Shown: piece after piece, positions 13,424 through 19,137 of the stretch
Layout of the letters: the number at the start of each line of letters is the position of its first letter
Numbering within the stretch: the first letter of the stretch is position 1
Source of the DNA: Schumannella sp.
Lineage (GTDB): Bacteria > Actinomycetota > Actinomycetes > Actinomycetales > Microbacteriaceae
Assembly (NCBI GenBank): GCA_025463555.1
Contig: JAODAS010000008.1
Coordinates: 1-33,306 of the forward strand
Length of the DNA stretch: 33,306 bases
Direction of reading: 5' to 3'
Notes under the pieces: model-generated
The model's input: the letters and a program-made list of their open reading frames with translations, nothing else
Told to the model about the DNA's origin: nothing
The model's database searches: none
Made by a program: the position numbers and the translations under genes

Positions 13424-13459
13424 GGTTTCGATACGCGCCTGCGGCGCTACTCAACCACC
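13424..13459 (-). repeat. Interspersed palindromic repeat, copy 3, inverted
   Basis: ggtttcgatacgcgcctgcggcgctactcaaccacc. Confidence 0.88.
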
Positions 13460-14035
13460 GGAGTGCATCGCGTGCACCGGCTGCGACGCCGCGATCGCAT
13501 CGGCCAGCTGCTCGACCGCGATCTCGAGCCGCAGGTCGAGCCCGACCTCGGTCACCGTGCCGTCGGGCCGGATCCGTGACGCGGCCCGGGACACGCTGAC
13601 CGGGTCGACCAGCAGCGCATCGAGCGCGAGCAGGCTCGGGATGAGCCCCGCGAGTCCGCGTAGGCCCCCCGTCTGCCCCGGCGACGCCGACAACAGCAGC
13701 ACGGGCTTGCCGTACAACCCGGTCGACCCGGCCAGCCAGTCGAGCGCGTTCTTGGTGACGCCGGATGGGGCGTGCACGTACTCCGGCGAGGCGATCACCG
13801 CGGCCGAGCAGTTCTCGGCGAGCAGCCGGAACTCCCGCACCGCGGCGGGAAGCGAGTCGGGCCGGTCCAGGCTCGGGTCCATGAGCGGCAGCTCGCGGAT
13901 CAGCTCTGCGCCGACGAACCGGAGCCTCGGGGCTCGTTCCTGCACGGCGGTGAGCAGGGCCCGGTGCAGTGAGTCCTCGCGCAGCGAACCGCAGATCGCG
14001 AGAACCGGGCTGAGCCCGCCGAACGCCTGCTCCAT
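13451..14035 (-). CDS. NADPH-dependent FMN reductase family protein
   Basis: VLAICGSLREDSLHRALL, VIASPEYVHAPSGVTKNALDWL typical flavodoxin-like FMN reductase. TAGGCT 6 nt upstream. Confidence 0.92.
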   Translation of the reverse strand: MEQAFGGLSPVLAICGSLREDSLHRALLTAVQERAPRLRFVGAELIRELPLMDPSLDRPDSLPAAVREFRLLAENCSAAVIASPEYVHAPSGVTKNALDWLAGSTGLYGKPVLLLSASPGQTGGLRGLAGLIPSLLALDALLVDPVSVSRAASRIRPDGTVTEVGLDLRLEIAVEQLADAIAASQPVHAMHSGG

Positions 14036-14063: not shown

Positions 14064-14300
14064 TTATGCGAGGGCGGCTCGCAGACGGTTCTCGTCCACA
14101 CGCCAGATCGTGTGCACGCGGTCGTCGATGAGGACGACCGGGATCTCCTCCGCGTACGCGTCGAGCAGCTCGGGGTCGTCGAGGATCGACTTCTCCTCGA
14201 ACGACACCTCGGGATGGTCGGCCAGCACGCCCCGCACGACGGCACGTGCGTCATCGCACAGATGGCATCCCGGCTTGCCGAGGAGGGTCACAGAGGGCAC
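14064..14300 (-). CDS. Glutaredoxin-like protein (CxxC)
   Basis: 78 aa MPSVTLLGKPGCHLCDDARAVV; DUF836/glutaredoxin-like. Confidence 0.9.
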   Translation of the reverse strand: MPSVTLLGKPGCHLCDDARAVVRGVLADHPEVSFEEKSILDDPELLDAYAEEIPVVLIDDRVHTIWRVDENRLRAALA

Positions 14301-14305
14301 GCCTT

Positions 14306-14312
14306 TAGACTA
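14306..14312. promoter_or_regulatory. Shared symmetric -10 element TAGACTA for divergent leaderless genes
   Basis: + strand TAGACT (14306-14311) ends 6 nt before ATG 14318; - strand TAGTCT (14307-14312) ends 6 nt before GTG 14300. Confidence 0.6.
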
Positions 14313-14317
14313 TGACG

Positions 14318-15106
14318 ATGCCCGAGGAACTGCAGTCGCCTCCGAGCGAGCGCCCGATCCTCGCGTTCTTCGATGTCGACAACACCCTGATGCGCGGCAC
14401 AAGCCTGTTCCAGCTGGGTCGCGAGGCCTGGAAGAAGAAGGTCATCACCTGGCGCGACATCGCCCCGTTCGCGTGGCATCAGATGCGGTTCATCCGCAAG
14501 GGCGAGAACCTCGGGCACCTGAAGTCGGCGCGTGAGAAGGCACTCGAGCTCTCGTACGGCAAGAAGCAGTCGGACATCATCGAACTCGCCGAGGGCATCT
14601 GGCAGGACCGCATCCAGCGTCGCCTCTACCCCGGAACCGTGGAGTTGACGCAGGAGCACATCCGCAAAGGCCACGAGGTGTGGCTGGTGTCGGCGACGCC
14701 GTGGGAGATCGGCGACCTGATCGCGCGCAAGCTGGGGCTGACGGGGGCCCTCGGCACCCGCATCCGGGCCGTCGACGGCATTTACACCGGGGAGCTCGAC
14801 GGCGACGTGCTGCACCACGAACGCAAGGCGGAGGCCGCGCAGGACCTGGCCACCAGGGCGGGGGCCGACCTCGCCGACAGCTGGGCGTACAGCGACAGCC
14901 GCAACGACATCCCGCTGCTGGAACTGGTGGGCAACCCGGTCGTGGTGAATCCGGATGCGATTCTCGCGCATCACGCACACACCCACGGCTGGCCGGTGCT
15001 GAGGTTCACGCCGAAGAGCATCCGTGAGGCGCAGCGCCGGGTGCGCAAAGAGGCGCGGACCGTGAAACGCGAAAAGCGCCGGACCAGGTCCGACGCCTCC
15101 GAGTAG
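14318..15106 (+). CDS. HAD-IB family hydrolase (SerB1-like)
   Basis: ILAFFDVDNTLMRGTS, WLVSATPWEIG, YSDSRNDIPLLELVGNPVVVNPD. ATG 14318 chosen over 14312 from -10 spacing. Confidence 0.93.
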   Translation: MPEELQSPPSERPILAFFDVDNTLMRGTSLFQLGREAWKKKVITWRDIAPFAWHQMRFIRKGENLGHLKSAREKALELSYGKKQSDIIELAEGIWQDRIQRRLYPGTVELTQEHIRKGHEVWLVSATPWEIGDLIARKLGLTGALGTRIRAVDGIYTGELDGDVLHHERKAEAAQDLATRAGADLADSWAYSDSRNDIPLLELVGNPVVVNPDAILAHHAHTHGWPVLRFTPKSIREAQRRVRKEARTVKREKRRTRSDASE

Positions 15107-19127: not shown

Positions 19128-19137
19128 AGTGTAGTTT
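19128..19137. promoter_or_regulatory. Overlapping divergent -10 elements (proC / CDF transporter)
   Basis: - strand TACACT (19128-19133), 7 nt from GTG 19120; + strand TAGTTT (19132-19137), 7 nt from ATG 19145. Confidence 0.5.

Follow-up and report, generated by a model that had tools for sequence, protein, structure and literature searches.

A symmetric TAGACTA element as the predicted shared -10 of two divergent leaderless genes in Schumannella, an arrangement that recurs in Actinobacteria

The window analyzed here, a stretch of 33,306 nucleotides from Schumannella sp., contains a divergent gene pair encoding a HAD-IB family hydrolase on the forward strand (14318..15106; PF12710, 9.7e-30; TIGR01490 above cut-off) and a glutaredoxin-like protein of 78 amino acids on the reverse strand (14064..14300; PF05768, Glrx-like, 2.4e-18). 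These profile matches confirmed the identities given to both genes in the initial annotation, and both genes are predicted to be leaderless. Downstream of the glutaredoxin-like gene lies an NADPH-dependent FMN reductase-like gene (13451..14035, reverse strand; PF03358, 6.7e-27), which is possibly co-transcribed with it from the promoter described below. The ATG of the FMN reductase-like gene (14035) is preceded, at a distance of 6 nt, by a separate TAGGCT, so this gene may also be transcribed on its own.

The start codons of the pair, GTG at 14300 on the reverse strand and ATG at 14318 on the forward strand, are separated by only 17 bp. Read on the forward strand from 14298 to 14320, the region consists of CAC, GCCTT, TAGACTA, TGACG and ATG in succession. 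The central symmetric element TAGACTA (14306..14312) can be read on both strands, as TAGACT on the forward strand (14306-14311) and as TAGTCT on the reverse strand (14312-14307); the 3' end of each hexamer lies 6 nt ahead of the start codon it would serve, the HAD-IB ATG and the glutaredoxin GTG, respectively. The forward interval is made up of position 14312 and the spacer TGACG (14313..14317), the reverse one of position 14306 and the spacer GCCTT (14301..14305). Direct reading thereby upheld the element, the gap and the two 6-nt distances that had been reported for this site. From the positions of the -10 hexamers, the predicted transcription start sites (TSSs) are 14300 (reverse) and 14318 (forward), 18 bp apart. 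No -35 or extended -10 consensus was evident by eye at this promoter. The general pattern CAYNNNNNTANNNTANNNNNRTG had a single match in the window, and 100 dinucleotide shuffles gave no match at all (0/100, mean 0.00).

A congeneric genome (G001), in which the site reads TAGACTAGGCGGATG, retained an invariant TAGACTA and both 6-nt spacings, with three of the five bases of the HAD-side spacer altered (GGCGG). The window also has a second in-frame ATG at 14312-14314, not mentioned in the initial annotation, which overlaps the last A of TAGACTA. We considered this codon as the HAD start and rejected it, since the ATG is absent from the congener (form without the second in-frame ATG, CACGCCTTTAGACTAGGCGGATG); it is thus probably not the start by this sequence comparison, and 14318 is the better choice.

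The HAD gene was present in 154 of the 400 Microbacteriaceae genomes searched, and the start region could be read in 114 HAD/glutaredoxin loci, among them a few from other families of the order. Schumannella sp. 10F1B-5-1 is one strain in which the locus is present. On the glutaredoxin side, 97 of the 105 loci had a TANNNT whose end lay exactly 6 nt upstream of an in-frame start; any other distance was found in 0-9 loci each. Nearly all HAD orthologues had a TANNNT 6-10 nt before the start, with 25, 37, 10, 30 and 8 loci at 6, 7, 8, 9 and 10 nt, respectively, a count in which one locus may appear at more than one distance. In the genera coded g58 and g48 the HAD ATG lies 9 nt from the element, so the HAD mRNA would there carry a leader of about 3 nt. 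The leaderless genes of Actinobacteria typically have a TANNNT about 12 bp upstream of the start, counted from the first T (PMC3160421), and the window itself contains 16 gene-like ORF starts with a TANNNT 6-7 nt upstream. Where the elements of the two genes are separate, each gene has its own TANNNT and so looks leaderless independently of the other. Taken together, these comparisons strongly support that both genes are leaderless, or nearly so.

Two other divergent pairs were seen in the window. Between 19118 and 19147, a leaderless-looking pair encodes a pyrroline-5-carboxylate reductase (GTG 19120, reverse) and a cation-efflux protein (ATG 19145, forward), whose -10s, TACACT (reverse) and TAGTTT (forward), each lie 7 nt from their start and overlap only in a shared TA at 19132-19133, an overlap similar to that of published bidirectional promoters of the 23-bp class. 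Divergent ORFs starting at 2442 (reverse) and 2485 (forward), 42 bp apart, have TANNNT sequences 6 and 7 nt before their starts, and their -10 elements appear to be separate.

Among the 99 HAD/glutaredoxin loci in which both elements were found, two separate -10 elements occurred in 75, with intergenic regions of 33-123 bp; one fully shared TANNNTA occurred in 21, with intergenic regions of 17, 18 or 20 bp; and elements overlapping by two bases occurred in 3. The fully shared state was confined to four genera, namely that of the window (g1, 2/2 loci), g58 (9/9), g48 (3/5) and g111 (7/9), the last with TAGAATA as the shared element. The element, whose conservation among relatives the initial annotation had put forward as a check, is kept in the congener, and comparable fused elements occur in the three other genera. 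Across the 21 shared loci, positions 1-4 (TAGA) and 6-7 (TA) were invariant and the spacers varied; on the glutaredoxin side the spacer changed in sequence and kept its length in the relatives. A tree combining HAD and glutaredoxin (46 loci) required at least four changes between the shared and separate states, although, this being a quick tree with SH-aLRT support only and many weak forks, the exact number of fusions is uncertain. Those loci of the order's other families that could be classified all had separate elements, so fusion is most simply taken as derived and repeated. Among the 99 classified loci the intergenic lengths jumped from 25 to 33 bp, with none at 26-32 bp, and back-to-back -10s at these missing lengths are possibly disfavoured.

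The geometry was then sought irrespective of gene identity. In 150 Microbacteriaceae genomes, TAGNCTA with N5/N5 spacing to the two start codons gave 53 sites versus 4 at an N11/N11 control spacing, used because the reversed-pattern control is a poor one for TAGNCTA. The unrestricted TANNNTA at N5/N5 was, by eye, no more frequent than its reversed control; only the restriction to TAGNCTA, the shifted-spacing control and the reading of both ORFs separated signal from background. By inspection, about 27 of 50 distinct sites were divergent pairs with both ORFs long and gene-like from those codons. Many of the remaining N5/N5 sites had a leaderless gene on one side only, and the enrichment includes such genes opposite a chance CAY (for example L174, L175, L191 and L192). 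The pairs named by profile or by sequence were dapD/dapE (TIGR03535; Peptidase_M20), menB/menC (ECH_1; PRK02901), pabB/pabC (Aminotran_4 for pabC, the best pabB model being just below cut-off), a prenyl diphosphate synthase with a DUF3040 protein, an SCP_3 protein opposite a PurD-like sequence, and a phosphoglyceromutase with an unknown protein. The genome of the window has a second fused site of its own, at dapD/dapE (G000:C155:3555-3577), cut by the contig end. In 30 dapD/dapE loci chosen by HMM rank, the element was shared in 6 (all 17 bp), separate in 20 and unresolved in 4, with elements at 6-7 nt on each side in shared and separate states alike. Across the class, more sites came from 148 genomes, one of them (L255) being menB/menC in another family. 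The orthologue survey and the spacing-controlled counts led us to reject a singleton coincidence, and, as far as sequence can tell, the TAGACTA layout is a recurrent design rather than a one-off.

In families f22, f27 and f35, the class-wide sites included a conserved divergent pair (L251, L252, L256, L264-L268 and L270) with one TAGGCTA or TAGCCTA between its genes, 6 nt from either start; one gene encodes a small MRWWK/MKWWK protein, the other a protein whose papain-like (YiiX) match is weak at best.

We consider it very likely that TAGACTA acts as a single bidirectional -10, recognized by a housekeeping sigma factor, for two divergent leaderless genes, with TSSs and sigma factor deduced from the sequence. 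The initial proposal of one symmetric element serving two leaderless genes is thus supported by the comparisons above, at the level of predicted TSSs. If RNA polymerase melts TAGACT, transcription would begin with the A of the HAD ATG (14318), and if it melts TAGTCT, with the G of the glutaredoxin GTG (14300), so that each mRNA would begin with its own start codon. The passages of PMC10268837 and PMC12825309 on bidirectional promoters describe divergent TSSs 7-25 bp apart, 18 bp being the commonest spacing, and those of the former describe -7T and -11A as reciprocally paired on the two strands, with a -18T on each strand frequent but not essential. With the two transcripts starting 18 bp apart, the -11A of either promoter is paired with the -7T of its partner, and its -7T with the partner's -11A. 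Given the predicted TSSs, the forward promoter would use T14311 (-7) and A14307 (-11), and the reverse promoter, starting at 14300, the same two base pairs in reverse, their complements serving as -11 and -7, respectively. The A of the HAD ATG gives the glutaredoxin promoter its T at -18, while the GTG start of the glutaredoxin gene leaves the HAD promoter with a C at -18 in place of the favoured T. By the published -18T rule, the choice of start codon in one gene would therefore touch the promoter of the other.

As to its origin, the element probably arose from two ordinary leaderless promoters, each requiring a TANNNT some 6 nt ahead of its start, fused by shrinkage of the intergenic region to 17-20 bp, an event that probably occurred several times in Microbacteriaceae. 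The likely outcome is not a switch but constitutive expression at a low level, roughly coupled between the two genes, and the occurrence of same-pathway pairs (dapD/dapE, menB/menC, pabB/pabC) makes co-expression more likely. Whether selection has favoured such fusions is less certain. To the broader proposal, that the 7-bp TANNNTA fusion of two leaderless promoters is a recurrent and selected architecture of Actinobacteria, in which a 17-bp promoter and start codons providing each other's -18 tie the expression of DapD to DapE, MenB to MenC and PabB to PabC, we give slightly less than an even chance.

Its counterpart is genome compaction with no regulatory meaning, where deletions shorten the intergenic DNA and fusion is tolerated because any TAGNCT with an A after it necessarily reads as TANNNT from the opposite strand too. 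The scattered, lineage-specific distribution of the fused state, the sufficiency of a single A after the hexamer and the several pairs with no obvious functional link are in line with this account; against it stand the retention of the fused element in all nine g58 loci read and its recurrence at pairs linked by pathway, with dapD/dapE fused in several genera and menB/menC in at least two families. We regard compaction as a serious possibility, though one we lean against; it bears on the reason for the element's existence and can hold together with the shared promoter as an account of how it works.

The initial annotation had further cast the site as a minimal divergent switch, on the ground that RNA polymerase loads in one orientation at a time. 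Read in this way, expression of one gene would exclude that of the other, and the shared element would set a regulated either/or choice. The relevant passages of PMC12825309 accept that polymerases exclude one another sterically where a -10 is shared, and the overlap geometry at TAGACTA is maximal. According to the same passages, however, basal activity in E. coli was too low for RNA polymerase competition at all five tested promoters (5/5), with one output repressed only when the other was strongly activated. Moreover, no regulator or operator was identified for the HAD/glutaredoxin pair, and some of the recurrent pairs listed above consist of enzymes that share a pathway. The switch is accordingly unsupported, and we hold it to be improbable.

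Still less credence is due to the reading that only one direction is real, the other match being due to chance and its gene transcribed from a promoter inside the neighbouring coding region. Some of the genome-wide matches are indeed one-sided, as noted above, but the HAD/glutaredoxin loci with separate elements have a TANNNT on both sides, at 6 nt (glutaredoxin) and 6-10 nt (HAD). That TAGACTA is instead a palindromic operator for a transcription factor, as its symmetry and its conservation in the congener might suggest, is hardly credible, given that relatives with separate elements have one directional hexamer per gene at a fixed distance from each start and that the middle bases vary (TAGACTA, TAGAATA; TAATCTA and TAGCCTA at dapD/dapE) while TA...TA, which the search pattern itself demands, stays.

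Returning to the shared bidirectional -10, the existence of both separate and fused relatives for HAD/glutaredoxin and for dapD/dapE makes the effects of promoter sharing, namely on expression balance, noise and competition, testable on natural orthologues. The geometry also offers a simple search rule and an aid to start-codon annotation in high-GC Actinobacteria.

The predicted promoter resembles those described by Warman, Grainger and colleagues (PMC10268837, PMC12825309) in its near-symmetric single -10, predicted 18-bp TSS spacing, reciprocal -7T/-11A and, as far as the passages of these papers describe, little dependence on a -35. Their examples are enterobacterial, and the passages concerned make no mention of leaders or start codons; the HAD/glutaredoxin pair differs from the promoters they describe in that both predicted TSSs fall at start codons. 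In having a TANNNT that ends about 6 nt from an ATG or GTG start, and no Shine-Dalgarno sequence, the pair is like the leaderless genes of Actinobacteria (PMC3160421; C. glutamicum, PMC3890552; M. tuberculosis, PMC10937400), but in those studies the boxes are described gene by gene, whereas here one box would serve two divergent leaderless genes. With both predicted TSSs at start codons, the whole non-coding space between the HAD and glutaredoxin genes would be a 17-bp promoter, and both start codons would double as transcription starts. Leaderless outputs near overlapping divergent promoters occur in Streptomyces and in restriction-modification systems, as far as is known with two distinct -10 hexamers or with one leaderless output only. 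Our search of the open-access literature brought up no bacterial case of two leaderless mRNAs arising from a single -10, a result that does not establish priority. Bidirectional -10 elements and leaderless mRNAs are each already known; here the two would be combined in one element.
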